Of a stretch of DNA of 64,000 bases, positions 4,401-63,860 are shown piece after piece. Source of the DNA: Tribonema minus (taxonomy: Eukaryota; Sar; Xanthophyceae; Tribonematales; Tribonemataceae); contig JAFCMP010000401.1 of the NCBI GenBank assembly GCA_017506865.1, positions 806,001 to 870,000 of the forward strand, in the 5' to 3' direction. Numbering within the stretch: position 1 is the stretch's first letter; every line of letters begins with the position of its first letter. Under the pieces are notes generated by a model, which saw only the letters and a list, made by a program, of their open reading frames with translations, was not told the DNA's origin and did not search any database. The position numbers and the translations under genes were made by a program.

Positions 4401-7400
4401 GGGAATCCGCGGCGTCGCGCAGCGGCTGCGCCGCCGCCTGTCGCGTGCGGAAGACGGCGAGGCAGCGGCGCTTTTACATAGCGTCTCAAGCAGGCTGGCC
4501 TAAGCGTGACTTTTTCGAGTTGAAACTGACATGAGTACATAGGGTTCCTGCCGATGAACACAGCTGGCTGCACCAGGCCCTGCGCTCTACAGCAGCTGTC
4601 TTCCCGAACCGAAGTCCGATTCCGAACCTTAATCCTTACTCTGATTACAGCCCTAGCCCTAATCCTTGCCCTGAACAGCTACACGGCTGCATTGAGGCCG
4701 ACAACAGGTAACAAAATTAAGACCACATATGTCCGGCAGTCAGCCGCAGCGTAGTCAGTTCGTTGTTAAAGCAGCGGCACAACAGCAGACACGTAACAGC
4801 AGATGCTGTTGCTACCACACCTCGCCTACAATGGTGATGGAGAAAACTTGCGCCTATGCGAATACCCTCAACCTGCGACTTGGACCGCCAGTGACCGAGG
4901 CCGCAATGCACACACAAGCCAAAGCGGGACGTCATGTGTTGAAGTTCTGACACGGGTAGTTAAGGGTGACGCTGTGCACTCTCATCACCGTCCCTCGGCG
5001 CGCTTGTGGAGAAAGCGAGCTGGCATACGAGCTATGCCGCGACCCCTCTGAGCCACTAAGACTTCAACTTCAACTGACAGCTGCCTTTGCGAAAGAAGAA
5101 ATTCAATCAATGGTCGCTTCGCAGGCCCCCTCACCTGCGCCTCGGTAAGCCGCCTCTGCAGCTCGGTCTCCCGGCTCAGCGCGCTTTCGAGGGCGACGAC
5201 GGCAGCTTCGTAGCGGGGCGTCACCCGTTGAATTTCTGACTCGGCCTCCTCGGCGCGCGCCTCCACCTCCGCGAGCTGCCGTGTCAAGTCCTCTCGGCCT
5301 GCCGACAGCTCCGCCATCTGTAGACAGCAGGAATGCGTCAACAAGTCGATGCGGAGAATGAGTCGGATACGACGCAGGCGGCCGGGCATGTGCAAATGCT
5401 CGTTGCTGGAGTCAAACAGCCATGTCAAGCGCTCCGCGCGTGCAAGCAGCACGCCTTAGAACTCGCAGCCAAGCATGCATGGAGCACAAGGGACATGGCT
5501 TCAACGCAGGGTGTTTGACGCAGCGCTGTCCATGTGCTGGTCCGTCTTGGCAGTATATGTATCGCGGAGGCCTGCCAGTCAAGGTGCAAGAGAGCCAGCT
5601 GAGCATCACCAAACGCGCCGCCGCACAACCACGACACGCTTCCGCTGGACGCCATGTGATGTCACGTCATGTGCGGCGAGCACTGCCTGCGCGGAGCCCG
5701 CTGCCACCTGCGCTGAGCAGTGCTCCTGCAGCCGGCACGTCGTCGACAGGCGCCACCCAAGTCAGGCTTCGACAAAGCCGTTTCATGCACCTGGCTCCCA
5801 CTCGGACTCAGGTCAACCGCTGCGCAGATGCCCTAACCCTAACCCTAACCCTAACAGATGCACTCTGTACACCAGCACAGCACCAAGTACTTCATGAAGT
5901 ACCTCGTCCGACGCCGCGCACAGCTCCGCGCGGCTCGCGTCGAGCGCCGCCACCTGCGCCGCGCACTGCTCCCGCAGCTCGCGCGCCGCAGCCTCCGCCG
6001 CGCGCGCCGCCGCACGCGCCGCCGCCTCCGCCTCCCTGAGCGCCGCCGCGGCGGCGTCGGCGGCAGCGGCGGCGGCGCGCGCTCCCTGCGCCTCCGCACG
6101 CGCCGCCGCCAGCTCGTCACGCAGCAGGCGGTCAAAGGTGCCGCGGCCCTCGAGCTGCCCGCGCAGCGCGTCCGCGCGGCGCCGCAGCTCGGCAGCGGCG
6201 GCGGCCTCCTCGGCGGCGCGCGTCTGCGGCGGCACGGCGCACAGCACGGTGCAGCGCGGTGACACAGCGCTCAGTGAGTGTGCAAATGGCCTGCGGTGAC
6301 TGCGTGGATGGTGAACGACTGCATTGAAATAAGCTCGCCTGCGCAAATCAGCGGCGGCGGCGCACTCCTCGGCGGCGCGCGTCTGCGGCGGCGCGGCACG
6401 CAGCGTGAGAGTGGTGACAGCGCTCGGTGAGTGTAAAGAAGGCCTGCGGTGACTGCGTGGATGGTTGCGAACGAACGCGTGGAAATGAGCGGGTGGGCAA
6501 GTGCATCAGCTAGGGAACTGGGGAAAGGTTAGTAACATATGTGCGCAGTTTCAGCGTACCTGTGCAGCAGCGAGCGCCGCCTGCAGCGCCTTGGCCTCTG
6601 CCGCCGCGGCGGCGATGGCCGCGTCCTTAGAGCGCAGCGTCTCCGCCACCTCGGACTCGCCCATGCCCGTCGCGCGCAGCTGCGCAATGGGGGGGGGGGG
6701 GGGGGGGGGCACGAAGAGCAGGGGCATGAATGTGTATGAAGCATATGTGGTTGAGCGATGGTGCGGTGGCTGAGCAATGCAGTCGGACGTCACAGGGCGA
6801 CACCTGGACTGAAACATGCTAAGCGTACGACGGCGGCATCGTGATGTGCGCCCGTCGTGCGTGCTGACGCATGGCGAGCGGGTAGTGCTCTCCGCACGTG
6901 CACGAGCGCGCTTCATTGCTGCGCGACGAGCGCGCAGTAACCATGCTGAGCACTGCTTCACAATCTCTTGCACACCACTTCTGCAAGATAGCAGCAGCTC
7001 ATTATGTTCCTTTCACCACTAATTCACTGCTACAAAGATTCCGCATGACATGTGCAGCGAGGCCGCTGTGCCTGTCGTCGTTCTCACGAGCAATCCCTGA
7101 CCAGTGTCCTAGTAGTCCTTACCTTGCAGGTATCTCTGTAAACAAAACTACTCTTGAAATGCAGTCGTTGCCGGTGGAAAGGGGCGCACCTGCATAGCCA
7201 GCGTTGCCGCCTCCTGCTTGGCAGCGCCATGCAAGTCGCGCAGCTCCGCCACCATCGCCTGCAGGTGCTCCACCTTCGCGGCGCGGCACGAAGTTTCAGG
7301 GTTGAAGTTAGGGTCAGGGTCAGAGCTAGCAGCGCGACTCGCATCGGGGTGCCACACGCCTCAGTCCGGAGCACAAATGCGTTCGCTTTGCGCGGTGGGC

Positions 7401-10400
7401 AGCATGCATCGTGCGTGATGCCAGCAAGGGTTGTGATACGCAGTACAAGATTGACACACACAGAGGCATGCATGAATACTGAGAGCATACAGCTGCTGAG
7501 CCTTGAGTGGTAACCTGTGCGCGTTGTTCGCTGCGCATGCACAGCAGTGTGCTGTTCTGCGAGGCAGACTCATCGGCCTGGGATGCAGGTGGGACCAAAC
7601 GCAAGCGGTGACGCGCCGTGTGTCAGCAGCCTTCAAGTGCAGAGTTGGACGTTTGTAGCATGTGCATGGTTGAACATATGCAACGCCTCCCGCAACATGC
7701 ACACGTGCATACCCTGCCTCCACTAGGTACATACCTGCCCCTGCAGGCCGCCGCTCCTCTCGTGCGCCTCCTCCAGCTGCTGGTTGGCCTCCGCCAGCTC
7801 CAGCGTGCGCGCGCGCAGGCGCTGCGCAGTCTCGTCGCGGTCGTGCTCTGCTTGCGCCGCCTGATGAGCAATGCGGGTGAGAAGGTGCTGAACGCTGCTG
7901 GTTTAATGCACTACTTTAAGATGGCAGTCACCGGAGAGATACAGGCGTTGGGCGGTCTCATCGCTCTCCTGCTCCGCCTGCGCCGCCTGATGCGCGGTGC
8001 AGATGCCGCAACGAATGCTGCTTTATGCACTACTTCAACATGGCAGTTATTAGTAAGGCTACAGGCGCTGCACGGTCTCGCCGCGCTCCTGCTCTGCTTG
8101 CGCCGCCTGATGAGCGGTGCAGATGAGAAGGCGCTGAACGCTGCTGATTCAATGCACTACTTCAACATGGCAATGACCGGCGAGATACAGGCGTTGGGCA
8201 TTCTCGCCGCACCTGCACCGCCTAATGAGCGATGCCGCGCTGAGAATTTGGCTACGCATTACACACAGCTTCCATGCACAACTTCAACATGGCAGTGAGC
8301 GTGCTGCGGGCGCGTGCATACCTTGGCCTCCAGCTCCTCTGAGCACTGCTGCATGGCTGCCTCAGCGCTCAGCGCCTGCTGCGCGCCGGCCTCCGCCTCG
8401 TCGCACCTCGTCATCAGCTGCGACGCCTGCTGGATCATCTCCGCCTGAGGCGACACATGAATAAGTGCGTTGTGGTGTCAGAGGCAGATGAGTATGGTTC
8501 TACGCAGCCCTGAACCTGGTCCTGCTCCGTGTGCGCGCCTTCTGGGCAAGAAGCGGTAATGGCAGTTATGGCACATGTTCTGCGCACCACAACCACTGCA
8601 TATCTGTGTGTATCTTCCAGCGAAGACTTGAGACTTGCAAGGCGCTGGTACAGCGCAGCGCCGCCTCCGCCTGACATGATTGAAGTGCTGTGTCTGCGGT
8701 ATTGCACAAGTGCCAGCCACGTGCTGGTCCAAAAGCAGTTGCGCGCGTGACTCCCGAGTAAGCGGTGGCTGCGCGCGTGGAGCATCCACTCAGACCAAGC
8801 ACTGCCCGGTCTCACTTACAACACAGCAGCTTCATTCGGGCCATGCAACGGCGCTTGACACCTCACCTGAGCATCATCAACCTGCGCGACGGCAGCGCAC
8901 AGCGCCTCCACCAGCTCCCGGTGCAGCGCCGCCAGCGGCGCGCGCGCGGCGGACCTGCTGCCGCTGCCGCCGTCGCCGCCGCCGCCGCCGCCGCCCATGC
9001 CATCCGCGCTCACATGCTCAAACCGCGATCTGCGCGCCACGATGCTCGATGACGACCACCTCAGCGGTGAAGCGAAAGCGCTAGGCATGGAGGCGCGCCG
9101 CCAGTACGCGCTGCCGCCGCCGCCGCCGCCGCTGCGCAGTAGCGCGGGGCTCGAGGCCTGCCGCGGCGCGCCCAGGCTGCGCCGCTGGCGCGGCGTCTCC
9201 GGCAAGAACGCGCGCCGCAGCCGCTGCACCGCGCCGCCGCCGCCGCCGCCGCCGTCTGCGAGGTCGTCAGCGCCGTCATCGAGCGCGGCGGCGGCGGCGA
9301 TCGCGTCCGCGGCGGCGGCGCGCATACCGCCGAGGCGCGCCGTGATGTCTTCCAGCGCCTCCTCCACATCGCTCAGGTGGGCTCTGAGCGCTGCCACCTC
9401 CGCCTCTGCAGCGTCCGCGGCGGTCTCCGCGGCGGCGGCGCGGGCGGCGGCGGCGCGCGCCGAGGCGGCGGAGACGTTCGCCGTGGCGTCGCTGGTGGCG
9501 AGGGCACGGCGCAGCGATACGGCATCCTCAGCAGCGGCATCTGCGGCGGCTGCCGCTGCTGTTCGGGCTTGGGACAGCTGCTCCCGAAGCGACTGCACGG
9601 AAGAAGCGGCAAGGTACACACGTTCGTACTTTAGAGGTGGCGTATGACTTGCGCTTGCGGCATGAGCTTTGCGCCGAAGCGACAGCTTCACCTGGTACAT
9701 GTAAGTGATGCCCAGTGTGACCTCTGATGCAGCGGTCTTCACAGCATTTGGCCGCGTTTCTCCGGGCATAACGCCCCCATCGCGTCTAACACCTTTCGTG
9801 TTGCAGCAGGTGGTCCGGCTCGCGATCGCTGTGCGGCCCCACTGCGCGCCGCTGCGGCGCACACTCCCCCCCAGACCGCTGGCCATCCCTTCTACACCCC
9901 CGAGCACTGCCAGATTTAACGACCACACGCCACTACCCACGGGCGCAGACGACGTCCTAACCCTACCCCAACCCTAACCCTAACTCTAACCCTCACCCTA
10001 ACTTTAATGCTACGCGCCACCTCACCTCGCTCTCCGCGCGCGCCCCCGCCAGCGCGGCGCCGCCCGCCGCCTGCTCCGCCGCGGCGAGCGCTGCTGCGGC
10101 ACGCGCCTCGGTGAGCGCTGCCTCGAGCTCCTCCTGCGCAGACGCGAGGGCCGCTTCCTGCTGCTGCAGCCGCTGCCGCAGCGCCGCCGCCTCCGCCTGC
10201 GCCGCGGCGTGCGCCTCGGTGGCGGCGCGCTCGGCCTCCTGGAGATCGTCCTGGGCGGTTTCGAGCTGCTGAGTGCGGTCCTGCGCATGGGGGGGGGGGG
10301 GGGGGGGGAAGAGGGGAGTGTGCAGGGGCCACCCTTCCGCGTATTACGTACTGTCAATTATAGTTTCATTGAAAGTTGGCCGCGCATCGGGCTCCTGGCC

Positions 10401-47500: not shown

Positions 47501-49691
47501 CTGTTTGTGGCAATACACATGCCAAGCCATCAATATTCCTCATAGGTGTTGCAGAGATGGATCTCAATTGAGATATGCTCATCGAGAGTCAAGGGTAAGA
47601 GACCGTGTTGACCAGCTGTCTGCAGCCATTTTGCCCTATGAAAACTTGTAGTGCAGCTGTCGGCAGCGTACATGCCGCATGCTGAGCCCCCCCCGACACC
47701 ATGCGCGCAAAGGCATGTCAACTTGAAGTTCAAAGTTAAAGCCCCCCTCCCGCCCCCCCCCCCCTTTCTTGAAACGTCGCGGGCGCCGCTTGTGCTTTTT
47801 GTCCGCGCCTTTCATGCAGTGGTACAGCGACGACGAGAACGCCGTCATGCGCAAGGCCTGCAAGCTGCTGTGCCGCAAGATGGACGAGCTCGAGAGCATG
47901 ATCCACGCGGAGCCCTTCTTCCCGGTGAGTGACCGGGCATGACCTAAACCTAACCCTACTTTTGACCCTAAGCTACCCCTACTCCTTACCCTTGATTTCC
48001 TAGCACCAAGTGTTGAGCTTTTGGCACATTTGAAGTGAGGGGGGCAACTTTAACAGCCCATGCACGGCACGAACAGCCCTACCAGCAACACTGTCACTGA
48101 CGCCATCTACACCCCCCCCTCCCCCTCCCCCATAAACAAGTCGTCATGGACGCCGGCGTGGAGACGATTGCCTTTCGCTACGTCCTGGGCTTCATCCACC
48201 GCGCCACGGACCAATCCGGCTGCAAGACCACCTTTGACACCATCTTCAACCATCCCCCCCACCCACCACCCATTCAGCACGCTAGACTACACTGTCTCTG
48301 ATGCCATCCGCCCCCCCCCCCCCCCAGGTTGTCGTGGAGGCCGGCGTGGAGAAGATTGCCTTCCGCTACGTCCTCGGCTTCATCCACCGCGCCACGGACC
48401 AGTCCGGCGGCAAGACGGTCGTGCCGGAGGAGGTCGAGAAGATGCGCGCCGACATCGACATGATGGAGCAGTTCACGCGCAAGTACGGGCCCGCGGTGAT
48501 GACGTCCGTGCACCACCTCAAGGAGCTCATGGTGATGCTCACAGAGCGCCCGGAGGTGCTGCAGCAGGCCGTCTTCGTGGAGATTCTCATGCGGCACGAG
48601 GGCAAGGAGGAGCAGGTCTTCAAGCTGCTCAAGGTGAGCTACAGGGGGTGTGGGATGGTGTGTGGGGGGGTGAAATTGAAGTTGGAAGTTGAAGTTGTGG
48701 TTGCGATGCGGCACGAGTGCAAGGAGGAGCAGGTCTTCAAGCTGCTCAAGGTGTGAGCCCCGGGGTGGGGGGGGGGGGGGGGGGGGTGAAGTTCAAGTTG
48801 AAATATTGAAGTTGCAGTTGGCGCATTTGCGATGTGCGTTTGTGGGTGGGTTGTGTGTGCGCCCACAATATTGGCGAAGCAGGTGCATAAGCCCGCACTC
48901 TTGTGATGCACAGGGCACCATTGTATGCCGCAGTTTCCATGGCGCTCCAACATGTTCAGCTTCAGCATGCTCACCTCAGCGCACTTCATGCCTACTCTAC
49001 ATCGCACTTGAGGGATAGCTCACGCTGCGGGCGGTCAGTGAACCCCTGTGCACAGAGCACTTCCGCACACGCGATGCGCCACCATGCCGCCATGGGTCAC
49101 CAAGTGCATGCAGCCTCTGCTCTGCCTTCACCAATCCTGGCCTTCATCCCTAATCCCAGCCCTGCCCCAATGAGGACGAAGTCACCCCGCTGCGCCACCG
49201 CCCCTCGCCTGCCTTAACCTATGGTGAGGGTTACGATCAGGTTGGGTCGGGGTTAGGGTTGCGGTTAGACTAGTCTAGGCTAACCCTTACCGCAACCCTA
49301 AGTTAGTCCTCAACTGCACAGAGGTCCCCCGTGCATGCACGTCGCTCACTTCAACTGCGCGCCGCGCCTCGCTCAACTCCAACTGCACGCCGCCGCTCCG
49401 CTCTGCTCCGCGCGCTCATGCGAATGGCGCCAGGTGGCGACGTCCGTGCGCGACGACCTGCGCAACTTCTACGTCCCGGCGTGGCTCAACAAGCTCAAGC
49501 AGAAGATGAACGCGATCGTCGCGGAGCGCGTGGAGCTCGAGCAGTCCACCAACGCGCAGCGTGGCGCCGCCGTGCGCTTCGACATCTTCGAGTGGGCCTT
49601 CGGCGCCAACCTTGACCGCCCCGACGGCGCGTACCTGTACACGTACCTCATGCAGTGCCTGCGCGCAGGCGGCGGCGGCGGCAGCGCGTGA
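29491..49691 (+). CDS. SEC6: C2-PH-C2 protein with exocyst Sec6/EXOC3-like C-terminal half
   Basis: Exons: 29491-29627, 29899-30027, 32329-32599, 33827-34021, 35132-35452, 36354-36696, 37591-37934, 39355-39543, 40234-40506, 41051-41292, 42038-42323, 43468-43654, 44268-44485, 45209-45386, 45992-46197, 46808-46924, 47820-47924, 48328-48633, 49434-49691 (stop TGA). They total 4,305 bases, 1,434 codons, with every junction GT-AG and in phase. Order: C2 (residues 43-178), helical 180-244, PH-like 245-466, C2-like 470-600, linker to 734, helical 735-1434. The C-terminal half resembles Sec6, the exocyst subunit that helps tether secretory vesicles to the plasma membrane: a PEELMRLLEKYMQ segment, the FRYVLGFI helix followed by an EEVEKMRADIDMMEQF helix, and a final V-R-D-D helix. 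Metazoan and yeast Sec6 lack C2 and PH domains. A CAPS/UNC13-type protein (C2, PH, MUN) is the main alternative, since MUN shares the fold. Confidence 0.65.
30028..32328 (+). other. 2.3 kb intron 2 of the C2/PH/Sec6-like gene
   Basis: The longest intron of this gene. It holds scattered TTAGGG-type motifs (30538-30556) but no exon-like frame that fits the flanking phases. Base composition is less GC-rich than the exons. Unlike most neighbours it shows no obvious exon-edge copies. Confidence 0.4.
32540..32893 (+). repeat. Three copies of an exon 3' edge (exon 3, Sec6-like gene)
   Basis: TACGTGACGGTGACGTT...CTCCGCAAGGTGCGTG appears at the true donor (32599) and again ending at about 32821 and 32883. 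All three keep a GTGCGTG donor. Confidence 0.8.
33827..34021 (+). CDS. SEC6: Exon 4: helical segment
   Basis: These 65 codons in phase 0 (LENQYDTKNLPALMSVV ... SAKQLSVILNQ) look helical, with regularly spaced Leu and Val. No named domain. The last 80 bases are duplicated downstream at least twice. Confidence 0.7.
33945..34355 (+). repeat. Three copies of an exon 3' edge (exon 4, Sec6-like gene)
   Basis: CAGAGCGTCGTGGCGGAGCTG ... CAGGTATGAATCGTC at 33945-34035 recurs at about 34090-34185 and 34265-34360. More decayed traces occur at 34425-34475 and 34660-34760. Confidence 0.85.
35132..36696 (+). CDS. SEC6: Exons 5-6: PH-like segments
   Basis: Exon 35132-35452 ends with SFALHLDLQDPIVLVAENEQ and DWLRWTAVLK, the last strand and C-terminal helix with tryptophan typical of PH domains. 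Exon 36354-36696 has AGWLRRRK ... VRRFFRLESDGDGRYALYY, typical of the first three PH strands. They could be two PH domains or one circularly split one. The true 5' edge of exon 6 is the last of five tandem copies. Confidence 0.6.
35637..36410 (+). repeat. Five tandem copies of an exon 5' edge (exon 6, Sec6-like gene)
   Basis: GGTCATCCCCGACTACTGCAA and variants begin at about 35638, 35799, 35979, 36167 and 36354 (periods 161-188 bp). Between them lie C-rich tracts and AG acceptors. Only the last copy leads into open coding sequence. Confidence 0.9.
36660..36960 (+). repeat. Two copies of an exon 3' edge (exon 6, Sec6-like gene)
   Basis: GTCGGAGCTCGCCGCG..CGACGCTCG plus following intron (TTGAGGTTG..GGCTCATTGC) recurs about 155 bp downstream (anchors 36671 and 36825). 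In the copy the donor GT has become CT. Confidence 0.8.
37591..39543 (+). CDS. SEC6: Exons 7-8: second C2-like domain
   Basis: Exon 37591-37934 (TTEFNAQLLLPVPADLL ... PRLLLSVHDTSS ... EVALARASVPFASLPFG ... LKLPLEGLTSNGAEIS) joins in phase 0 to 39355-39543 (VTVTMRRLGQYKTAW ...). Strand spacing, the LLLSVHD strand and a closing ISVTVTMRR strand resemble a C2 domain. The 5' edge of exon 8 is present in eight tandem copies. The tail (LEVYRLPAPSKDNPS) is duplicated twice downstream. Confidence 0.6.
38470..39420 (+). repeat. Eight tandem copies of an exon 5' edge with CCCTAA-type spacers (exon 8, Sec6-like gene)
   Basis: GTCACCGTCACAATGCGG and variants follow a TGCAG- or TCAG-type acceptor near 38477, 38579, 38717, 38841, 38974, 39100, 39216 and 39355, usually continuing GGCCAGTACAAGACGGCG. 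The spacers are degenerate CCCTAA/CCCTCA arrays. The first and sixth copies are most eroded. Confidence 0.9.
39479..39870 (+). repeat. Three copies of an exon 3' edge (exon 8, Sec6-like gene)
   Basis: GTCTACCGCCTGCCGGCACCG ... CCCTCGGTGAGC at the true donor (39543) recurs ending at about 39693 and 39831, each with CCCTCGGTGAGC intact. Confidence 0.85.
40234..40506 (+). CDS. SEC6: Exon 9: linker
   Basis: These 91 codons (PVVDYSKPAAVVDYYSIEA ... RRMSFGMVNTK) have phase 0 at both ends. The second half is Gly/Ser/Arg rich and probably disordered. No domain recognised. Confidence 0.7.
40840..41150 (+). repeat. Two copies of an exon 5' edge (exon 10, Sec6-like gene)
   Basis: GGGCAAGAGCCCGAGCCCGTC ... 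TCATCCTCCGCATCAC at 40855 precedes the true edge at 41051 by about 196 bp. The copy's acceptor reads TTAG; the true one is ACAG. Confidence 0.8.
41051..42323 (+). CDS. SEC6: Exons 10-11: start of helical Sec6-like region
   Basis: Exon 41051-41292 (GKSPTPSPKGAEPKK ... LLYITYKLDAMRAEAESPE) ends in phase 2 and joins 42038-42323 (EKLARAAAETYRRIRTNMG ... RLSCYFAKLIESKARPLW ... IFASQYVQ). Mostly amphipathic helix. Donor GTGAGT and acceptor CCCCAG restore a lysine codon. Confidence 0.7.
41430..41468. repeat. Telomere-type inverted repeat (hairpin) in intron 10
   Basis: TTAGGGTTTGGG at 41430-41441 pairs with CCCAAACCCTAG at 41457-41468, eleven of twelve bases, with a 15-base loop. Confidence 0.7.
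42240..42710 (+). repeat. Two to three copies of an exon 3' edge (exon 11, Sec6-like gene)
   Basis: GCGCGCCGGACCCGCGCCCG ... CAGTACGTGCAGGTATGCG at the true donor (42323) is repeated at about 42435-42515. A strongly eroded third copy lies at 42635-42705. Confidence 0.8.
43468..46197 (+). CDS. SEC6: Exons 12-15: middle Sec6-like helices
   Basis: Exons 43468-43654, 44268-44485, 45209-45386 and 45992-46197 give ANTVFVEYYLRCIGELG, EVPIEVVVAFVCFLVKR, PEELMRLLEKYMQLIVSQ and NAVRYLSAILNDMSRS. The PEELMRLLEKYMQ segment and the following NAVRYLSAILND helix resemble Sec6 segments around its (S/T)-x-E-x-(V/L)-(E/M)-x-LL-x-x-YM and Y-x-x-AI-x-N motifs. All junctions are in phase 1 or 0 as needed. Confidence 0.6.
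44130..44245 (+). repeat. Short tandem repeat CCAACTGTTGAAG before exon 13
   Basis: (G/A)CCAACTGTTGAA(G/T)(T/C)T occurs four to five times with a period of 17-33 bp just upstream of the acceptor at 44267. It is not copied from coding sequence. Confidence 0.7.
44860..45290 (+). repeat. Copies of an exon 5' edge (exon 14, Sec6-like gene)
   Basis: GCGCAGTGGCCCAAGGAGGG ... GGCGACTGCTCCCC occurs at 45003-45078 and at the true edge 45209, offset 200 bp. The intron block CAGTGCAGCCAC ... CACATTGCA(T/C)GTAAACCCAGCTAC is itself repeated from 44876. Confidence 0.85.
45582..46060 (+). repeat. Three copies of an exon 5' edge (exon 15, Sec6-like gene)
   Basis: CAGGCGCCAAGGTCTT(C/T)(G/A)AGGCC ... CCTCGTACGC begins at 45582, 45788 and 45992, period about 205 bp. 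All three keep the AG acceptor; only the third continues in frame. Confidence 0.9.
46125..46440 (+). repeat. Three copies of an exon 3' edge separated by poly-G tracts (exon 15)
   Basis: GCGCTCAGCGACGCGCTGCTG ... GTGGTGAGTG at the true donor (46197) recurs ending near 46336, with a shorter copy near 46400-46440. G runs of 25 (46223-46247) and 22 (46354-46375) separate the copies. Confidence 0.85.
46808..49691 (+). CDS. SEC6: Exons 16-19: C-terminal Sec6-like domain
   Basis: Exons 46808-46924, 47820-47924, 48328-48633 and 49434-49691 give DVALQQVDAVCASFFQAE, WYSDDENAVMRKACKLL, VVVEAGVEKIAFRYVLGF, EEVEKMRADIDMMEQF and VATSVRDDLRNFYVPAWL. The order of a helix ending before a (V/A)-x-x-Y-(L/V) helix, an E-x-x-x-K-M acidic helix and a terminal R-D-D segment matches the C-terminus of Sec6. 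The protein ends in a short Gly run before TGA at 49689-49691. Confidence 0.65.
46870..47175 (+). repeat. Three copies of an exon 3' edge (exon 16, Sec6-like gene)
   Basis: CAGCAGGTGGATGCCGTCTGC ... TTCCAGGCGGAGGTGAG at the true donor recurs ending near 47052 and 47166. Confidence 0.85.
48095..48420 (+). repeat. Two copies of an exon 5' edge (exon 18, Sec6-like gene)
   Basis: TCGTCATGGACGCCGGCGTGG ... CACGGACCAATCCGGC at 48142 precedes the true edge at 48328 by about 187 bp. Both are preceded by C-rich tracts. Confidence 0.85.
48585..48760 (+). repeat. Two copies of an exon 3' edge (exon 18, Sec6-like gene)
   Basis: ATGCGGCACGAGGGCAAGGAG ... CTGCTCAAGGTG recurs about 120 bp downstream (48707-48755), followed by a 20-base G run. 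Confidence 0.85.
49253..49301. repeat. Telomere-type inverted repeat (hairpin) in intron 18
   Basis: TTAGGGTTGCGG at 49253-49264 is the exact reverse complement of CCGCAACCCTAA at 49290-49301. Inner bases TTAG and CTAA extend the pairing in part. Confidence 0.75.
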
Positions 49692-50852: not shown

Positions 50853-50869
50853 AGTTGAAACGTTACAGT

Positions 50870-53919: not shown

Positions 53920-54150
53920 TCGCTCGCAGGGCCTGGCGAGCATCTGCCTGACGCAGCAGCAGCAGCAGTGCTTGCGCTCGCACAGCTTGTCAAGTGTGTC
54001 TGCATGACGCAGCAGCAGCAGCAGCAGCAGCAGCAGTGCGTGCTCGCGCAGCTTGTCAAGTGCATCCGCATGACGCAGAGCAGCAGCAGCAGCGCTCAAT
54101 CAGACTTGCTCGCGCAGCTTGGCGAGTATCTGCTTGACGCGCTTCTGCTC
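53920..54150 (-). repeat. Copies of the SEC15 coding end beyond its stop codon, with CAG runs
   Basis: GCTCGCGCAGCTTGGCGAG..TCTGC(T/A)TGACGC at 54112-54140 (coding) is repeated at about 54048-54075, 53980-54008 and 53928-53955. Between copies are (CAG)n/(GCA)n runs of four to nine units. The copies lie after the stop codon on the minus strand. Confidence 0.8.
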
Positions 54151-54268
54151 CAGCTGCGGGACTTCGTCATCGACCGTGGATTTGATCTTGGCCGTCAGCG
54201 AGAGGTTCTTGTACTTCTCCAGGACGGCAATCAGGTGGCTCACGTCCAGGCGCGGGTATTCTTGCATT
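54100..54268 (-). CDS. SEC15: SEC15 last exon
   Basis: A 20-odd base poly-C tract plus CCGCAG precedes the exon. The first base completes an arginine codon, then MQEYPRLDVSHLIAVLEKY and KRVKQILAKLREQV-stop. This fits the Sec15 C-terminus: a proline-containing strand, an LLEK helix, and a basic K-Q-L-R end. Confidence 0.85.
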
Positions 54269-57200
54269 CTGCGGAGGGGGGGGGGGGGGGGGGGGGAAGT
54301 ATGGGGGGAGTGATTGCAGATGTTGACGTCCATACTTCAAGTGCGCGCAAGCACACTGATGAAGTTTGCAAGCATGCTATTGCGACAATGCTGCATACGC
54401 GTGCCTGTGTACGGAGGCATGTGCTTCTTATACTGCGTACGTATACACGGCAGCAAGAGGTCGCGACGCTTCTGTGTCCAGGATGGCGATGATGCTTTTG
54501 TCGGTTGTGTCGTTGGCAAGGATGATGGCGAGCATTTGCTCCTGCAAGTTACGAAAGCAACTCTCCTGCTCAGCCCTGCCCTGCATCGGCCATGCTGTCC
54601 CCGTCATTAACGAGTTTGAGGTCAGAAGTCACCAGCTACTTCAAGGTCTCCAAGCGACGCTCCCGCCCAGCCATCCCTCGGTAGGCATCGACCATGTCGC
54701 TTAAGTCATGTGGCGAGATCAAGGTTGAGACATTTGCTACTTAAACTTTTTGCAATTGCAACCAGCGACGCTCCTGCGCAGCCTTACATCACATACCTAA
54801 AACAGGCGTCATTCATGTCGTCCAAGTCGTTGGCGAGGATGATGTCGAGCAGCTGCTAGTTTAAATTTTACTACTACTTCAAGTTTCGAACCTGCACCTG
54901 GCCACGCTCCCGCCCTAGTTACACACCTGCGGTTAGCGTCGACCATGTCGTCCGGATCGTTGGCGAGAATGATGTCGAGCAGCTGCGAGAGCTTGTGGAA
55001 GCAGTCGCTGAGCCCGGCGATGCCGCTCTCCTCGCAGAAGGCGACGAGCGCTGCCACGTCGCGACTCAAGTTCAGCAGCCCCAGTATGTTGACGCTCGCG
55101 CAGCGCGGGCCCAGGAGCTCCTGCGGTAGGTAAGTATGGAGTGGCAGTGAGCGCAGCACATGGGGTGAAATCACCAAGGGCCAGTTCAACAGCCCCCAGT
55201 CGTTGACGCTCACATGAGGTCAAGTCACCAGGGGCCAAGTTCAACAGCCCCAGTTGGTGACGCTCACGCAGCGCGGGCCCAGGAGCTCCTGCGGTAGGTA
55301 AGTATGGAGCGGAAGTGATCGGCGCACATGAGCAAGGCTCAAGTTTGGTAAGCAAGTGTGCAAGTGAGCGGCGCACAGGAGGTTGAATCAGCAAGGCTCA
55401 AGTTCAACAGCCCCAGTAGTTGACGCTCGCGCAGCGCGGGCTCTAGGAGCTCCTGCGGTAGGTAAGCATGGAGTGGAAGTGAGCGGCGCACATTAGTTGA
55501 ATCAGCAAGGCTCAAGTTCGGTGATAAAGTATGGAAGTGAGCGGCGCATGAGGTAAAATCACCAGAGGCCAAGCTCAACAGCCCCTGTAGTTGACGCTTG
55601 TGCAGCGCGGGCTCTCAAGAGCCCCTGCGGTTGGTGTGCATTGAGGTAAGCATGTGAGGGTGAATAAACAAGCAAGGGACAATCAAACAGTGAAAACAGT
55701 ACGCTTACATTCATGAGAAGGCTGACGATCGGCAATCCCAGTATGTTGCTGCTCTGGCAGCTTTGCCCAAGATCTCCTGCGGTTTGTACATCATGAAAAT
55801 GAGCACAGAGCATGAGGCGTACTGACTGCAAAGCATCCTTCTGTGTTCGCAAACATATGAAAAGAGACAACGCAACTGCTGCGGTGACGGTTTGGGTTTG
55901 ACTAGAGGTGCTGTTGTCAAGGGTAGGCAGGTATGTCATGAATTGCGACTCGGGGAACCTGTGGATGCATGTCGCTGCATGCTCCGGACCGCCTGCCGAG
56001 TCCTAACCCTAACCCTACATACAACCGCAACCCCCTACTGCAACCCCCCTATAACTCCTCTGTTTCCAAGAGTTCAATGCACCACTTGCTCCCTGAACAG
56101 CGCCATACTAATCCTAAGCACCCCGTAACTTACCCTGATTGTGTCCTGCAACCATGCGCAATGGGCTGCAGCAGGTTATTCCTAGCCCTACCTTCCCCCT
56201 AAACCTGGATCATGTCGTGGCTCTGAAGGGATGATGCCATCGCATACATGTTCAGTCGCCAGGTTAAATGGCTGTACGACCGTTGTCGGAAGAGCGTACA
56301 GTCAAGAGCAAACACAAGCGCGCGCCTCTGAAGGCTAGCTAGCATCACAGGTATGGAGTCCAAGAACGATCATGCATTACGCAAGTTTTAGGTTGAGGTT
56401 GAACTAGGATAGACCACCCGACCCAAAAATTTAGGGCTAGGATTACGAAGACCTAGGGTTACGGTTACGCACCTCGAGCATGAAGTCGCAGATGTGCAGC
56501 ATGCACGCAAAGTGCGCCGCGTCGCGCATGGTGGACGTGAGCGACGACAGGTTCATGAAGGTCACGCGCAGGTAGTCAATGAGGTCGTCGCAGTACGGGT
56601 GCGCCGTCTGCCGCATCGCCACGGGCTGCGCGCGCAGGGGGCGGCGGGGGTAACAGACAGGGCAACACCGTCAGCAGTGCTGATTCGCAGATCGAGTGGG
56701 GTATCGAGAGGCGCGCGCATGTGATTTGTGCAGCAAGTGTTCGTCGCAGTACGGGTGCGCAGTCTGTCGCATCGCCACGGGAGCAGGCGGCAGGGCGGGC
56801 GGGCGGGCAAGGCGGCATAACACACCGCGAAACCGTCAGCTGCGCTGATCCGCAGATCAAGTGGGTATCGAGATGCGTGTGCATACGGCTTGTGACGTTA
56901 GCTTTTTCGTTCTTGCAGTACGGGTGCGTCGTCTGCCGCATGACCACGGGCTGCGCACGTGAGTAAGCGGGAGGGCGGTGTAACAAACAGGGCAAACTCG
57001 TCTGCAGTGCTGGTTGGCAGATCGCGCAACTTATGGAGATGCGTGCGCATTTGGTTTGTGAAGTGAGCATTGTTGCAGTGCGGGTGCGCTGTCCGCCGCA
57101 TGGCCACAAGCTGCGCGTGCAAGCGAGCGGGGACGCGTGCGCAACAGACAGCAAATGGGCAATCTGTCAGCAAGGGTGACCTTGCGACGAAAAGCGTGCA

Positions 57201-60200
57201 TCGCAAAGGTTGTACATACGACAGCGGCACGCAGCAGAGCTATCTTGACTGGTGCGCATTGCCACGGGCTGCACACAGTGGGCAGGGACATGTGTCCACA
57301 AACGAGAGGGGTGAAACTCAGCGCTGGAAGCGTCAGCATCAGCGGATCCATGCGTGCTGCATGCGATATGGTAGGGTAAGGTTAGGGTTAGCAAGCGCAT
57401 TTGCGACAGGTGGGTGTACTCTCCTTGCAGTTTTTGCATTGCCAATAGGCGCATTGACAGCAAACCACAGGTTGTCCGCAAGCGAGGATGTTAGGTGGCA
57501 ACTTGGGGCCTGCACAAGGGTTAATTCAGCCCTATGTTAGGTTCGCCTCAAGATCGGCCACAATGCGCTCACAAAACTGGGTCGACCGTCAATATACCCC
57601 TAACCTGAACAACGCATTAGCCGCACAGAGCTCATGCACATCAGCGCCGCATGGAGAAAATCCAGGTCACACGTAAAACGGCTCCTCTGCAGGGGAAATG
57701 TGGCACAACCTCAACTTCAGCCCCACATCCCCCCACCCACACACACGTACGACTTCTCCGCTGCGGTATGTGGCATAACTTCAACTTCAACTCCCCCCCC
57801 CCCCCCCCCCCGCAGCCTCACCTCCCACTTGACGAACTCCATGCCGGCGAGCAGCTGGTCCGCCTTGTGCCGCACGAGCTCAAAGATCAGATCGCGCGCG
57901 CGATCCCCAATCCCCTCCAGCGCCCTGCTGCTAGAGTCCAAACTCCGCAGGCTCGTCTCCTTGTCCTGCATGCCTCCCATCCCCCCCCCCCCGCGCCGAC
58001 CCCCGTGCGCCCCCCGCCGCCGCCGCCGCTGGCGTTGGCGTTGGCGCCCTCGTACGCCGCCGCGACTTCCGCAAACTGCAGCGCCGCGAGGCACTCGTAC
58101 ATGACGGAGGCGAGGTGCGGCGGGAGCTTGGCCGCGTAGCCGCTGTTGGCGCTGATCTGCGGGGGGGGGGGGGGGGGGGGGGAGGGGGGGGGCAGCAGGG
58201 CTCAGTTGTAGGCGCGTATGTATTGTAGCCGGGTAGCAGCTGTTGGCGCTGATCTGCGATGTGGGGGTAAAGAGGGGGGGGCGGGGCGGCAGGGCTCAGT
58301 TGTAGGCGTGTATGTATTGTAGCCGCTGTGTTGGCGCTGATCTGCGTTGTGGGGAGGGGGTAGGGGCACGTGGCAAGGCAGCAGGGCTCAGCAGGGGGGG
58401 GTCACGGTAGAAAAGCAAGTCCGTACGGCCGGGTGCACGTCTCTTAAATTGTGAGAGCTGTCGTGCTTACCTGCGCGGCCTTGAGTATGTGCGAGTCCGC
58501 CTCCGATATCCTATAACGTTCAACATGCACTTTGTTCTTGTGTATTTGCCTGCAGCATGTCACTTGAACATGGTTGCGACCCACGCGCTCACCTGCGCGG
58601 CCTTGAGTATGTGCGAGTCCGCCTCTGCGTTCCCTCACTTCAAACATGAAGTTCTGCCTGCGGCACGTCACTTCAACATGGGGTTTTCACCTGTGGGATG
58701 TCACTTCATTTTACCGTTTTCACCCTCATGAAACAACCCATGTTGACCCACAAAACACTACAGTAGCTGCAAGCGCACCTGCGCGGCCTTGAGTATGTGC
58801 GAGTCCGCCTCGGCGTTCTGCAGCAGCTCCAGCATGACCTGGCGCACAACGGCGGTGCCGCGCTCCATGGTCTGGAACACCGCCGCGCCGGCGCTGCGCG
58901 CGTCCACGTGTGACAGGAAGGCCACCATGAGGCCGCTCAGCTGTGCACGGCATTACACACAGAGTACACGACAAGGACAGGTGTTCAGGCGGCATCAGTA
59001 CGGTGCTAATGCAAGGCATGGGCTTGATGATACTGCTGCACTCACTGTGCCGAGTACAGGTCGTGAACTGCTGAGTACATGATGTGAATACCGCCGCGCC
59101 GGCGCTGCGCGCGTCAACGTGCGACAGGAAGGCCACCATGAGGCCGCCCAGCTGTACACGGCGGTACACACGGAGTACACAACAAGGACAGGCGGCGTTG
59201 GTACGGTGCTCACACAAGGGCATGGGCTTGATGGTACTGCGTATCGTGATGAGTACAGGTTGTGAACTGTTGAGTGCGTGATGTGAACACCGGCGCTGCG
59301 CGCGTCGACGTGCGACAGGACGGCCACCATGAGGGCGCTCAGCTGTACACGGCGGTACACACGGAGTACACAACAAGGACAGGCGTTCAGGCGGCATCGG
59401 TATGGGGCTCACACGAGGGCATGGGCTTGACGGTACTGCGGCACAGGTGCTGTACTGTTGAGTGCGTGATATGAACACCGCCGCGACGGCACTGCAGGCG
59501 TCGACGTGCAACTTGAATGCCGCCAGGACTCAGCTGTGCCAGCAGTACACACAGAGTACACAAAAGTACACAGTAAGGACAAGCATCCTGACGGCACTGG
59601 TTACAGCGCAATGTGCACGGCAGCTCACGGCAAGTAGTACACAAGGCAGTGCACAACGAAACCGGGCACTTGATTGCCATGGTTCAGCATGCTGACCTAA
59701 CTGACGCTACCCCTACCCCTAACCCTAATCCTAACCCTAACCCTTAACCCTAAGCGGCGCAGGACGGTATGCGGAAGAGCGGTCCGCACAAACGCGCGTC
59801 CTCACACGCGCGCATGTCATCGCCAGCACGCCTGCAAACATACGTACTCCTGTACTGCAACGCACTGCAAAGTACAGGCCCCGTAGCAGGATGGATGCAT
59901 TCCATGACACAGTGAAAACGGGCAAATTCCCGTCAAGCGACTCATTTACAGTAGTTGACGACACGCTGTTCCAAACCGCCTCTTGTCCAAGCCATGCCAC
60001 GTATGTAGGAGCAAATACACAGTCAAGTATGCGTTTATACACGCATGACGTGACGCTTATGCACATGCCTTTCTTGACCATTACCATGACCTGGATTCGA
60101 GGTGGTTAGAAACACATACACTAACCACCCCTTGTCACCTGAAGCTCTACGATCTTTTGATTCGTTTTCAGACAGCATGTTCTCAGCGACGGCAAATGAG

Positions 60201-63009
60201 CCAGTAGATGGCGGTGCGAACGTTGTGCTGTGGCGGCTGCGTCTCTCAACGACTCGGACATGACTCGTACTGCGACTTGCTTTGATGTGAGTACTGCTGC
60301 ATTGATGCTCCGCCACACGGCGACGGCGCATGAGGCCGCTTCCAAGTTGCAGTCCAAGACAATACAAACACATGGATGACGCACGTGTTCGGATCAACTA
60401 CTTGTGAACTGAGGTCTGAGAGCTGCGGAGTGTCGCCGACAGGACTCCAACAATGCCGTCAGGTGTGCTGCTGACCGCTCTCATGATGCATTGTATGCTT
60501 CCTACTTTATACGCTTGCTTGACAGTTGTGCTCAGCTACGCCCTCTGCTGCTAATGCATTCGCAAGCAAGCCTAGCCCTAGCCCTAACCCTCACCCAAAC
60601 CCTGAATAAGCAAGCGACAGACCCACTCATGCGATACATCGAACTAGCCCTAGCTCCGACGCTGCTCTTCTACTGACCTTCAGCAGGGCGAATCCCAGCT
60701 CCGGCACTGATGCGGAGAAGGGGTAGGTAATGGGGTATCGTCTCCGCGACTTCCCCCTGCCCCCGCCCGCCCCCCCACCCCCAGGCCCAGGCCATCGTCC
60801 ACAGCGCTCGCCTCCGCGGCGACGGCCTCGTGCAGCCCCAGGGGCACTATGAACGCCTCGTACTGGGGGCGGAAGGAAGGCGCAACGCGAGGCGCACGCA
60901 CGCGAAAACACGCGCTACATGAGCTGTTTGAAGCGGTCCAGCAAAACCGACCTGAAGCTACACCCTCACCGTAACCCTGCCCGTAATATTAAGCGCGTCA
61001 ACTGCATCAGAGGACAGCTTCGCGCAAGCCCGCCCGGGAGGCCCCTCTGCATGCATTGAGATCTGGGCCCAAAAGCCGCGGGACAAAGCAGTCAAGATCA
61101 AGCAACGACAACAGGCAGGAACATTGGTTTTTATAGGTGTCCGGTGAAACTGGGCGCATTTCATCGGTGTCCAGTGAATCTGGGCGGGGTGGGGTCGATC
61201 CCACGAGAGGGGTAGGGCTGGGGTTACACAGCTTCCAGGCAAGCCAGCCCGGGAGGCCCCTCCGCGTGCATCGCCAACTGGGTGTCAAAGCAGAAGCAGA
61301 CATTCGAAGAGATCAGCATGCAAGACAAGGGGTATTGATGTGACACAAAGGCACCCGCTGAAGCCGCCATCAAGCAAAGGCTGTTGATTGCAGCGACCCC
61401 CAACCGTCCCAGGCGCGCTGTCGAACTCAGTGGTGAGGGGAGTTGAAATTGCATCCCCAACCGTCCCAGGGCGCGCTGTTGTACTTAGTGGTGTGACGTG
61501 CCGCTGCTCGCTGCCACCCCTGACCCTAACCCTCCCCTCATGTAACCCCTCCGAAGTAACTGTCATCAGACGCAGCGCACTCACCTCTGCCTCCGACACT
61601 ATCTCCAGCGGCTGAAAGCTCTCCTCCTGCAGGATGCGCCGGCACTCGCCCTCAAACGCCAGCAGCAGGAGCTTCTGATAGGGGTCCTTGAGCTGGTGGT
61701 GCAAGGGGTAGGGGGGGAGTTGAAGTCAGGAGTCAGAGTCGGGGTCAGAGAACCCATCAGCAGGAGCTTCTGGTAGGGGTCCTTGAGCTGGTGGTGCAAG
61801 AGTCAAAGTCAGGAGTCAAATTCAGGAGTCAGAGTTGGGGTCAGAGAACCCAGCAGCAGGAGCTTCTGGTAGGTCCTTGAGCTAGTGGTGCGGGAGTCAA
61901 CGTCCGGAGTCAAAGCCAGGAGTCAGAGTCGGGGTCAGAGAACCCAGCAGCAGGAGCTTCTAGTGGTGCGAGAGTCAAAGTCAGGAGTCAAAGTCAGGAG
62001 TCAGAGTCGGGTCAGAAAACAGGTTTCCAAAGACAGACTGTGGGGTGCACACGCGCCAGTACAACGGCGCCACAACAACGGCACTTGCAGCAATACAGCG
62101 CATTATCGGTTGGAATTCCGCATGTCAGCCTGTTTGCTGACAGAAGTGTGGGCACAATGTTAGCGCATGCGGTGCATGAGAAGCGCACTTGCAAATCGGT
62201 GCAGGATTGCCCCCCCCCCCCCACCCCCCCCCCCCCCCCCCCTCCAGACTCTGTACCACAACAATGGGTATTTGGCAACTGGCTCTTGCCGGTGGCACGC
62301 AGCGCCCCTGTGGTAGGTGCATGACTCACGCACTTTTCAAAACTGCTCGCTACCGCACCACGCATGGCACCCGCTGCTGCAACGCCAAGAACCTCACAAT
62401 CAATTTTTCTGCGACGAGGGCACAGCTCAGCATCGTTATCAGGGCTGATGTAGCACACACATTCTGTGCAGGAGCTTCACGAGCGAGCGGCAGTTGAGGT
62501 GACCATCGCTGGCGAGCTTGGCCTGACAAATGGCAGCTGAGCGCTGGCACCACAAAGCAATGCAGCAAACACACCTTGCGCAGGAGCTCCATGAGCGGGC
62601 GGCAGTCGAGGTTGAGATGGCTTGCGAACAACTGGCAGCTCAGCATCGCTATTAGAGTTGGTCTAGCAGACACATACCTTGCTATTAGGGTTGATCTAGC
62701 ACACATACCTTGCGCAGGAGCTCCATGAGCGGGCGGCAGTCAAGGTCGAGGTCGCTAGCGAGCTCAGTGTTGTTCTTACGCTTGATGTAGCAAGCACATA
62801 CCTTGTTAATAGCGATGCTCTAGCAAACATACCTTGCGCAGGAGCTCCATGAGCGGGCGGCAGTCGAGGTCGAGGTCGCTAGCGAGCTTGGCCATGGCCA
62901 GCAGCGTCTCCTTGAGCTGCATGAAGTGGCCGGGCCGGCTGAGGCCGCTCAGGTGGTGCTCAATGAGGTCGCGCAGCGACGCCTGGCACCGCCGCCACGC
63001 CTTCTCGAC
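54100..63009 (-). CDS. SEC15: Exocyst subunit Sec15/EXOC6, C-terminal part (5' end off right edge)
   Basis: Exons in transcript order: 63009-62833, 61692-61585, 60862-60678, 58940-58779, 58156-57822, 56625-56473, 55120-54927, 54268-54100 (stop). They give 494 codons, with phases agreeing after one base is added in exons 60678-60862 and 57822-58156. Matches to Sec15 are spread over the whole length: MQLKETLLAMAKLASDLDL with PLMELLRK; LKDPYQKLLLLAFEGECRR; YPFSASVPELGFALLK, like the Sec15 FPFS-x-x-VP motif; YCDDLIDYLRVTFMNLSSL; LSDCFHKLSQLLDIILAND; and YPRLDVSHLIAVLEKYKNL. Sec15 binds Rab GTPases on vesicles and recruits the exocyst at the plasma membrane. Exons encoding the N-terminal part must lie beyond 64000. 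Confidence 0.85.
54470..54990 (-). repeat. Four copies of an exon 3' edge (SEC15 exon 55120-54927)
   Basis: The true edge (GTCGACCATGTCGTCCGGATC ... GATGTCGAGCAGCTGC) is at 54927-54985. Copies, increasingly eroded, start near 54797, 54678 and 54480. Confidence 0.8.
54927..55120 (-). CDS. SEC15: SEC15 exon
   Basis: ELLGPRCASVNILGLLNLS continues to LSDCFHKLSQLLDIILAND and DMVDANR, ending in phase 2. It matches the Sec15 region with an L-x-Q-L-(V/L)-D-(L/I)-(L/I) helix near the C-terminus. Confidence 0.85.
55075..55800 (-). repeat. Five to six copies of an exon 5' edge (SEC15 exon 55120-54927)
   Basis: TTGACGCTCGCGCAGCGCGGG ... AGGAGCTCCTGCGGTAGGTAAG occurs at 55089, 55256, 55418 and 55591, with a truncated copy at 55200 and an eroded one near 55743. 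Most keep the acceptor (CTGC on plus). Confidence 0.85.
56473..56625 (-). CDS. SEC15: SEC15 exon
   Basis: These 51 codons (PVAMRQTAHPYCDDLIDYL ... HFACMLHICDFMLE) correspond to the Sec15 segment with P-Y-x-x-D-L-I-x-(F/Y)-L followed by a C-M helix. Phase 0 at both ends. Confidence 0.85.
56590..57290 (-). repeat. Five copies of an exon 5' edge (SEC15 exon 56625-56473)
   Basis: CAGTACGGGTGCGCCGTCTGC..CGCATCGCCACGGGCTGCGC starts at about 56591 and recurs near 56747, 56917, 57076 and (short) 57250, period about 160-170 bp. Confidence 0.85.
57822..58156 (-). CDS. SEC15: SEC15 exon with poly-Gly insert and one-base frame break
   Basis: It begins ISANSGYAAKLPPHLASVM, then CLAALQFAEVAAAYEGAN, a Gly-rich insert, and ends DRARDLIFELVRHKADQLL and FVKWE. 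The frames before and after the insert differ at a run of twelve C on the plus strand (57981-57992); thirteen would join them and make the exon 336 bases, phase 0 to 0. The FELVRHKAD helix fits the Sec15 FELV-x-x-K-(I/A)-D segment. Confidence 0.75.
58141..58390 (-). repeat. Three copies of an exon 5' edge (SEC15 exon 58156-57822)
   Basis: GCTGTTGGCGCTGATCTGCG followed by a G-rich run and GCAGGGCTCAG starts at about 58142, 58243 and 58328. Confidence 0.8.
58465..58815 (-). repeat. Three copies of an exon 3' edge (SEC15 exon 58940-58779)
   Basis: ACCTGCGCGGCCTTGAGTATG..GCGAGTCCGCCTC at 58777 (true) recurs at about 58592 and 58473. Each keeps the donor (AC on plus). Confidence 0.9.
58779..58940 (-). 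CDS. SEC15: SEC15 exon
   Basis: These 54 codons (LSGLMVAFLSHVDARSAGA ... QNAEADSHILKAAQ) are in phase 0. Both edges are tandemly copied: the 5' edge three more times upstream to about 59660, and the 3' edge twice downstream to 58470. Confidence 0.75.
58880..59670 (-). repeat. Four copies of an exon 5' edge and intron (SEC15 exon 58940-58779)
   Basis: Units of about 190 bp: GCGCTGCGCGCGTCxACGTG ... GGCCACCATGAGG ... CAGCTGTxCACGGC ... ACACAACAAGGACAGG, starting near 58890, 59100, 59293 and 59487. The fourth is the most eroded. Confidence 0.9.
59699..59752. repeat. Interstitial telomere-type array
   Basis: CTACCCCTAACCCTAATCC and variants, seven to eight units, just beyond the exon-edge copies of SEC15 exon 58940-58779. 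Confidence 0.85.
59753..60677. other. SEC15 intron without supported exons
   Basis: No frame here fits both flanking phases. A second degenerate CCCTAA array lies at 60574-60604. No exon-edge copies were recognised. Confidence 0.35.
60678..60862 (-). CDS. SEC15: SEC15 exon with FPFS-type motif and one-base frame break
   Basis: The exon opens YEAFIVPLGLHEAVAAEA and ends YPFSASVPELGFALLK, but these lie in different frames. The switch falls in a G-rich run near 60755-60785 (plus-strand C run). Length 185 plus one base restores phase 0 at both ends. Because the downstream motif is conserved in Sec15, a missing base is likelier than a real break. Confidence 0.7.
61585..61692 (-). CDS. SEC15: SEC15 exon
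   Basis: These 36 codons (LKDPYQKLLLLAFEGECRR ... QEESFQPLEIVSEAE) match the Sec15 D-x-Y-x-x-L helix and the following I-L-x-x-E-x-(F/Y)-x-P segment. Phase 0 at both ends. Confidence 0.8.
61640..61990 (-). repeat. Four copies of an exon 5' edge (SEC15 exon 61692-61585)
   Basis: CAGCAGGAGCTTCTGATAGGG..TCCTTGAGCTGGTGGTG with GAGTCAAAGTCAGGAGTC-type spacers starts near 61660, 61758, 61855 and 61947, period about 95 bp. Confidence 0.85.
62460..62890 (-). repeat. Four copies of an exon 3' edge (SEC15 exon 63009-62833)
   Basis: ACCTTGCGCAGGAGCTCCATG..AGCGGGCGGCAGTCGAGG at 62831 (true) recurs near 62708 and 62576 with donor kept, and in eroded form near 62468. Confidence 0.9.
62833..63009 (-). CDS. 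SEC15: SEC15 exon (first in window)
   Basis: These 59 codons in phase 0 (VEKAWRRCQASLRDLIEHH ... DLDCRPLMELLRK) are followed by GTATGT. The exon corresponds to the Sec15 region just before the D-x-Y-x-x-L-L helix. Both its edges are tandemly copied into the neighbouring introns. Confidence 0.8.
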
Positions 63010-63860
63010 CTGCAGCGTGTCATGTGGTGATGATCAGACATTCGGGATTTTCAGATGTTGATGTTCAATGGTTGAGATTTGGGCAGTGATGCTCAGTCAA
63101 TGCAGTTGCACAGTTGCGCAGACAGGCACCGCCGCCACGCCTTCTCCGCCTGTGGCCCGACAGGTGTCATGACCGGGCAATGAGGATAGCATGATGATGC
63201 TGAGATGATGAGATTTCAGAGGCGATGCTCAGTTGACAAGGTTGCGCAGCGACGTCCGGCACCGCCGCCATGCCTTCTCCACCTGCAGCACGACAGGTGG
63301 CGATGACCGGGCAATGAGGATATCATGTGGCGATGCTCAGATAATTGCAGCGGTAGAGCTCAATGAGGTCGCGCAGCAATACGTGGCACCGGCGCCACGC
63401 CTTCTGCGTCTGCGGCCCGTCCGGCGTCGATGACCGGGCAATGAGGATATCACACGGTCTTGATCATTCAAAAAGAAACTCAGATGGCGATGCTCAATGA
63501 ACGAGGTCGCGCAGCGACGGCCTGCGGCGGCGCGCTGCGCGCAAGGTATCTCAGATGGTGATACTCATCCAATGAGATGGAGGTTGGTGATGCCTAATTC
63601 ATGAACCCTCTAAGACCTCCTCATTAACATCCAATGAGAGAGATCTCATATGGTGTTGCTTGTTTCATGACATCTTAAACGTGGCAACACTGATCCGTTG
63701 ACATCAGAGATGATTACGGTCTTTCACTGAGACCTCAGAAGGTGTCGCTCATGCAATGCATCAACAAATGGTGATGCTCATCAACTAAGATCTCGGATGG
63801 TATTGCTCAGTCAATGAACTCGCGCAGCGAGGCGCAGCGTGCAGGCGCGTCCGTCCGCCT
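62975..63860 (-). repeat. Five or more decaying copies of an exon 5' edge (SEC15 exon 63009-62833)
   Basis: CGCAGCGACGCC..TGGCACCGCCGCCACGCCTTCTC with TGACCGGGCAATGAGGATA spacers: true edge at about 62973-63012, copies near 63125, 63245 and 63370, then only short remnants near 63507 and 63822. The spacer motif GATGGTGATGCTCA continues to about 63810. Confidence 0.8.

Follow-up and report, generated by a model that had tools for sequence, protein, structure and literature searches.

The window analysed in this study, a 64,000-nucleotide stretch of Tribonema minus contig JAFCMP010000401.1, contains four cellular genes in which copies of exon edges lie in the adjoining introns (Table 1). Gene A has a complete 19-exon frame that uses none of the copies, and its product matched the Pfam Sec6 family above the cut-off (E 7.5e-08). 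The two affected genes below 29 kb are known from the gene finder alone. The earlier note had described all four genes, on both strands, as affected, and this was borne out, with an uneven spread: array-bearing intron ends numbered 4 of 58 below 29 kb versus 20 of 48 above it. The region at 1-28000 has GC-rich gene-finder exons and few edge arrays, and adjoins the heavily affected exocyst-like genes.

Table 1. Affected genes and exon-edge copies in the window, in window coordinates
Feature	Position	Strand	Basis or remark
Acceptor array, exon 5903-6223	6183..6490	-	gene-finder exon
Acceptor array, exon 7735-7847	7816..8301	-	two copies + exon; gene-finder exon
Donor array, exon 25069-25488	25393..25684	+	gene-finder exon
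Donor array, exon 27224-27635	27617..28087	+	period 344; gene-finder exon
Gene A, Sec6-like	29491..49691	+	19 GT-AG exons, single open frame, 1434 aa; borders read by eye
Donor array, exon 3 (32329-32599)	32544..32995	+	strict rule
Donor array, exon 4 (33827-34021)	33938..34401	+	strict rule
Acceptor array, exon 6 (36354-36696)	35610..36426	+	four copies + exon; strict rule, alignment
Donor array, exon 6	36626..36948	+	strict rule
Acceptor array, exon 8 (39355-39543)	38506..39435	+	five detected copies + exon; copies differ in exonic length (at least two lengths)
Donor array, exon 8	39483..39855	+	strict rule
Acceptor copy, exon 10 (41051-41292)	40840..41142	+	strict rule
Donor copy, exon 11 (42038-42323)	42254..42563	+	strict rule
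Acceptor copy, exon 14 (45209-45386)	44873..45279	+	strict rule
Acceptor array, exon 15 (45992-46197)	45563..46051	+	strict rule
Donor array, exon 15	46132..46435	+	strict rule
Donor array, exon 16 (46808-46924)	46877..47240	+	strict rule
Acceptor copy, exon 18 (48328-48633)	48088..48416	+	strict rule
Donor copy, exon 18	48589..48820	+	strict rule
Gene B, SEC15-like	54100..63009	-	Pfam Sec15_C match in 3 of 5 exons tested, each below cut-off
Copies of the gene B coding 3' end across the stop codon	53953..54140	-	coding edge without splice site; read by eye
Donor copy, exon 54927-55120	54806..54989	-	donor at 54927 crossed, by eye; missed by strict rule
Acceptor array, exon 54927-55120	55065..55645	-	three copies + exon; strict rule, alignment
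Acceptor array, exon 56473-56625	56585..57151	-	strict rule
Acceptor array, exon ending at 58156	58131..58391	-	strict rule
Donor array, exon 58779-58940	58462..58818	-	strict rule
Acceptor array, exon 58779-58940	58875..59570	-	three copies + exon; strict rule, alignment
Acceptor array, exon 61585-61692	61659..62020	-	strict rule
Donor array, exon 62833-63009	62423..62893	-	strict rule
Acceptor array, exon 62833-63009	62952..63533	-	strict rule

Comparison of the window with itself yielded 70 forward repeat pairs, 64 of them spaced by less than 800 bp, and 2 inverted pairs. With the curated exons of gene A, 25 of the 30 local clusters crossed an exon edge, 2 were intron-internal and 3 lay elsewhere, in agreement with the approximately 30 exon-edge clusters described previously; with gene-finder exons the same 30 were classed as boundary (26), mixed (2), exonic (1) and noncoding (1). 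In gene A the strict edge-crossing rule was satisfied by 14 of 16 clusters, and in the SEC15-like gene, of which most exons were located, two small ones with approximate ends, by 8 of 10. The period of 48-205 bp given by the earlier note was not reproduced, as the smallest period per window edge cluster ranged from 62 to 344 bp. Moreover, its copy number of two to eight was upheld by alignment up to five copies plus the exon, the further degenerate copies being seen by eye only; the most copies detected at any edge in window and sample were six, the exon not counted.

Other repeats also occur in the window. A long imperfect palindrome (50871-52312; self inverted repeat of about 1.44 kb, 77.6% identity), flanked by diverged direct repeats (50526-50727 and 53043-53232), is perhaps a mobile element. 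Telomere-like CCCTAA sites are found in introns (for example 38550-39340 and 59707-59753); over window and sample together, introns held 77 (138 kb), other noncoding sequence 40 (120 kb) and exons 1 (55 kb).

Frequency of edge arrays in the genome

The rule that copies of an exon's 5' edge lie upstream and those of its 3' edge downstream is no special rule: the innermost copy is always the one joined to the remaining exon, and therefore any tandem duplication across an edge yields this arrangement. Thus, the question is one of frequency. Because the window had been chosen for its arrays, the fair test is a genome sample of 25 stretches of 10 kb outside it, 23 of which lay at or near matches to a splice-like pattern and 2 of which were arbitrary; these stretches are possibly gene-richer than average, and none was selected for repeats. 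Exons of at least 90 bp were called with a gene finder trained on gene A through three retraining rounds, which on its own training gene returned 15 of the 19 curated exons exactly and 2 with shifted ends, and missed the first 2.

The enrichment at exon edges extended beyond the window, as the earlier note had implied. The sample held 88 clusters, of which 45 were located at exon edges, 38 were noncoding, 4 were mixed and 1 was exonic, and at least one edge array occurred in 17 of the 23 sampled stretches having scorable introns. Of 20 sample clusters first scored as intron-internal, 14 were checked by eye, and at least 2 proved to be edge copies with a misplaced exon end. When all tolerated placements were enumerated, 17.0 of 55 intronic clusters in the sample were expected to cross an edge and 35 did so; in the window the corresponding values were 11.1 and 25 of 27. 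These counts exclude clusters outside scored introns (33 in the sample and 3 in the window).

Edge copies remain detectable for longer because exons are conserved, and simulation put this advantage at 1.27-fold. Masking of the exons left 44 of 62 intronic clusters in window and sample edge-type, versus 13.6 expected (32 clusters outside scored introns excluded), where edge-type denotes a cluster that touches an exon to within 12 bp or overlaps a crossing match found without masking; the sample contributed 25 of 41 and the window 19 of 21. A simulation of placement, decay and detection in 88 array-free introns gave 20% edge-type clusters (96 of 475 detected), from which the sample value differs with p ~1e-8. 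Multi-copy arrays are detected more easily, and clusters of a single repeat pair were therefore counted separately; 13 of 28 such clusters in the masked sample were edge-type. Furthermore, in 26 of 62 clusters repeat blocks ended no more than 3 bp from an exon edge, against 1.6 expected, and at identities of at least 85% window and sample held 10 edge clusters and 3 inside, with 2.5 expected at edges. The excess at edges is thus about 3-fold in counts and about 6-fold in odds, and it survives these controls. Detection bias alone was considered as its source, and both the masked counts and the simulation speak against it.

Anatomy of the arrays, intron growth and decay of copies

The arrays consist of side-by-side copies in the same orientation, each holding the exon edge, the splice site and adjoining intron, as in tandem duplication; for many of the older arrays, divergence of the intron part prevents proof of precise head-to-tail junctions. 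Acceptors and donors were affected equally (38 of 193 and 38 of 192), and copies were present at 1 of 12 coding starts and 1 of 11 stops, numbers too small to set these apart from splice edges. Thirteen exons carried arrays at either end, somewhat more than chance would give (odds ratio 2.7, p 0.02), and gene-to-gene differences may be the reason. Over 76 edges, the exonic part of the units had a median length of about 60 bp, and the smallest period had a median of 151 bp. In a second count, the smallest period had a median of 143 bp at edges (n=64) and of 126.5 bp in other clusters (n=58), with overlapping distributions (KS p 0.07), as if a similar process acted away from edges. No clear signal was found among the local features compared at array edges, namely G/C runs (10.5 vs 11.7%), telomere-like repeats (6.6 vs 3.9%) and the TTCAAC motif (11.8 vs 9.1%).

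The exonic parts of copies agreed within 15 bp in 23 of 32 multi-copy arrays and disagreed in 9; therefore a single founding duplication, later multiplied, seems to lie behind most arrays, and some edges seem to have been struck repeatedly. Six noncoding pairs of at least 95% identity, all outside scored introns, abut with an offset of -3 to +4 bp, and this fit points to little microhomology. Four edge pairs reach 95% over 46-78 bp and are spaced rather than end to end, and a single edge copy (L014) is near-identical in both exon and intron. In plants, short tandem duplications arise from staggered-nick repair or patch-mediated break repair. The present arrays resemble them in having units of tens to hundreds of bases and little microhomology, and to our knowledge no exon-edge bias is known for the plant duplications.

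Edge arrays were found in 59 of 171 scored introns of window and sample and made up 23,140 of 138,293 intron bases (17%). Introns with arrays had a median length of 894 bp versus 551 bp for those without (p 0.0005), and the former median fell to 459 bp when the arrays were subtracted, so that the arrays suffice for the extra length. The genome gave 92 matches to light-harvesting exons, which mark it as that of an alga, whereas comparison with PDB entries did not settle its lineage. One case appears to record a recent gain. Two light-harvesting gene copies, L035 and L036, share an exon and differ at 52 of 255 third positions, being either paralogues or diverged alleles, and two extra copies of acceptor and exon occur in L036 only. 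By eye, these extra copies have different exonic breakpoints at one edge and bear the substitutions of L036 itself; because they derive from the L036 version, loss in L035 is less likely. Absence of an array from a close relative was found for this pair only. Stretches that are 99.86% identical on two contigs (L040 and L041) contain no array and are thus uninformative on gain; they suggest that some haplotype copies are included in the assembly.

Mismatch rates between copy and exon at the first, second and third codon positions were 8.9, 9.1 and 18.7% (120 pairs, 61 edges), as expected if the copy drifts while the exon is constrained, and changes unique to the exon numbered 22, 13 and 97. The donor GT was retained in 46 of 56 aligned pairs and the acceptor AG, at a slightly elevated rate, in 59 of 64; with about 84% expected under neutral drift at the present divergence by our own estimate, retention of splice dinucleotides appears to be about neutral. 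Such retention does not demonstrate the competing splice sites that the earlier note had suggested. The erosion with distance from the exon that had been described was confirmed in direction and modest in effect: the nearest copy was more like the exon than the farthest in 22 of 32 arrays, less so in 7 and tied in 3 (p 0.013).

Several features fit plain neutral decay less well. Among changes found in a single copy, third positions are over-represented (152, 166 and 235), which such decay does not predict; this lean is also present at G/C sites and is strongest in the nearest copy (33 of 401 vs 17 of 506). Gaps were six times commoner in intron parts than in exon parts (0.103 vs 0.017), where simulation gave a ratio of 1.5 to 2.2, and intron identity beside the edge was lower than simulated (0.73 vs 0.78-0.79). 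Contributions to these misfits could come from copying of the exon on separate occasions, from gene conversion, from mutation that depends on sequence or from a degree of translation of the copies. In particular, gene conversion from exon to copies could account for high exon identity next to diverged intron, of which L030 is an example, and translation of the nearest copies could account for their third-position lean. Judged by sequence, the copies would be mostly neutral-looking debris with some misfits.

Origin of the edge excess

The account that we favour is as follows. Short DNA pieces, with units mostly of about 60-220 bp, are tandemly duplicated in this genome. Duplications lying wholly within coding exons would presumably be purged by selection, and those spanning an edge would persist, as the exon body keeps an intact splice site and the additional copy lands in the intron. 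Since most arrays keep one exonic breakpoint, the unit would multiply as a tandem array after the founding event, and some edges would be struck more than once; the copies then drift and decay, leaving a longer intron. The excess at edges would reflect a higher duplication rate there, for example through breaks or fork stalling at exon edges, rather than longer survival. A mutational bias of this kind is the favoured reading of the excess; protection from deletion near exons could raise the survival of edge arrays perhaps two-fold by our own estimate, and the near-identical end-to-end pairs, six noncoding ones and the one edge copy L014, are too few to locate new duplications. The local tandem origin, the edge excess, the longer introns and the mostly neutral-looking decay are the established part of this account, which as a whole, from duplication through survival at edges, multiplication and decay to the higher edge rate, we hold to be probable.

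If tandem duplication struck at random, edge arrays would be conspicuous merely through exon conservation and the inevitable share of crossings. Placement alone does account for part of the crossings in the sample (17.0 of the 35 seen), detection does favour edge arrays, the copies do decay much like neutral sequence, and copies also occur at one coding start and one stop. Nevertheless, the excess persists in the sample when exons are masked (25 of 41 against about 20% simulated) and among the copies of at least 85% identity, and unbiased duplication is accordingly considered unlikely. Retention for function, whether in alternative or recursive splicing or as mini-exons and new introns such as that published for potato (PMC4974935), is somewhat less likely still. 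The acceptor AG retention, the third-position excess in the nearest copies and the many copies called as small exons by the gene finder would agree with it, but the donor GT stands at the neutral level by our own estimate, the copy-exon difference of about 9% at positions 1 and 2 is half the third-position rate, as if the exon alone were constrained, some copies contain stop codons or indels (seen by eye, uncounted), and gene A needs none of them for its frame.

A deposit by introner-like elements or another transposon is very improbable. Introners occur in many eukaryotes and, like the present arrays, change intron content genome-wide in protists (PMC9860276), and a palindromic element lies close by in the window. 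Introners are, however, similar whole introns at many loci (PMC9860276), whereas near-identical introns at many loci were not found for the two arrays searched genome-wide: a SEC15 array had 2 matches in 158 Mb, both local, and the 71 matches of the exon-8 array comprised the array with its neighbouring copies, a large number of short telomere-like sequences and a few short pieces elsewhere. Nor is the similarity bounded by the two splice sites of the intron, as the units enter the exon and hold the coding sequence of the host exon itself. These results, which led us to reject an introner origin, agree with the local derivation and coding content that the earlier note had ascribed to the units. 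An assembly artefact is the least credible explanation. The 18S rRNA at L039, which looks ochrophyte-like, seems to bear base-level errors, with apparent single-base losses in conserved stretches; on the other hand, the copies differ, often by 10-30%, with a codon-position structure that no collapse or misjoin makes, and the pattern is repeated on many contigs. Assembly collapse was rejected because the copies are too diverged.

Tandem duplication across an exon edge, the event on which the preferred reading builds, has a published precedent in a single case. In the potato RdRp gene, one tandem duplication across an intron-exon border gave a new intron supported by RNA (Ma, Lan and Niu 2016, PMC4974935). 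On that description it is the same kind of event: the duplication spans the end of an intron and the start of the next exon, and the upstream exon piece becomes intronic. Unlike that one event, the arrays in this study affect many edges, donors as well as acceptors, with up to six detected copies besides the exon, and are known from DNA alone. In the tandem genomic duplication model of intron gain (Rogers 1989; Hellsten 2011; Gao and Lynch 2009; as cited in PMC4974935 and PMC3443670), gene structure is likewise reshaped by internal tandem duplication; in the classical form of the model, as given there, an exonic AGGT is duplicated and an intron created, whereas here an existing intron grows at its edge. 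Among the matches listed from the open-licence literature, no title or abstract opening described a genome-wide precedent for tandem duplication at exon edges. The "distinct mode" of intron growth that had been proposed is therefore too strong a term, given the published potato case, although introns are indeed lengthened and the edge excess is also present elsewhere in the genome; what is new is the scale, many places in one genome, and the bias to edges, the type of event being already known.

In conclusion, exon edges in this lineage may be hotspots of mutation at which short tandem duplications arise, in connection with transcription, splicing or chromatin at the border, such that introns would lengthen at their ends as the border is copied over and over, in a mode without transposons and with a steady supply of spare splice sites; we advance this broader proposal tentatively, at slightly short of an even chance. 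Its interest is that gain of intron length and the origin of new splice sites have mostly been deduced from rare, isolated examples. Should the sample prove typical, about one-third of introns would carry partly decayed copies of their own edges and would form a very large set of natural experiments, which would address which copies are spliced, the pace of copy decay and the fragility of exon borders.
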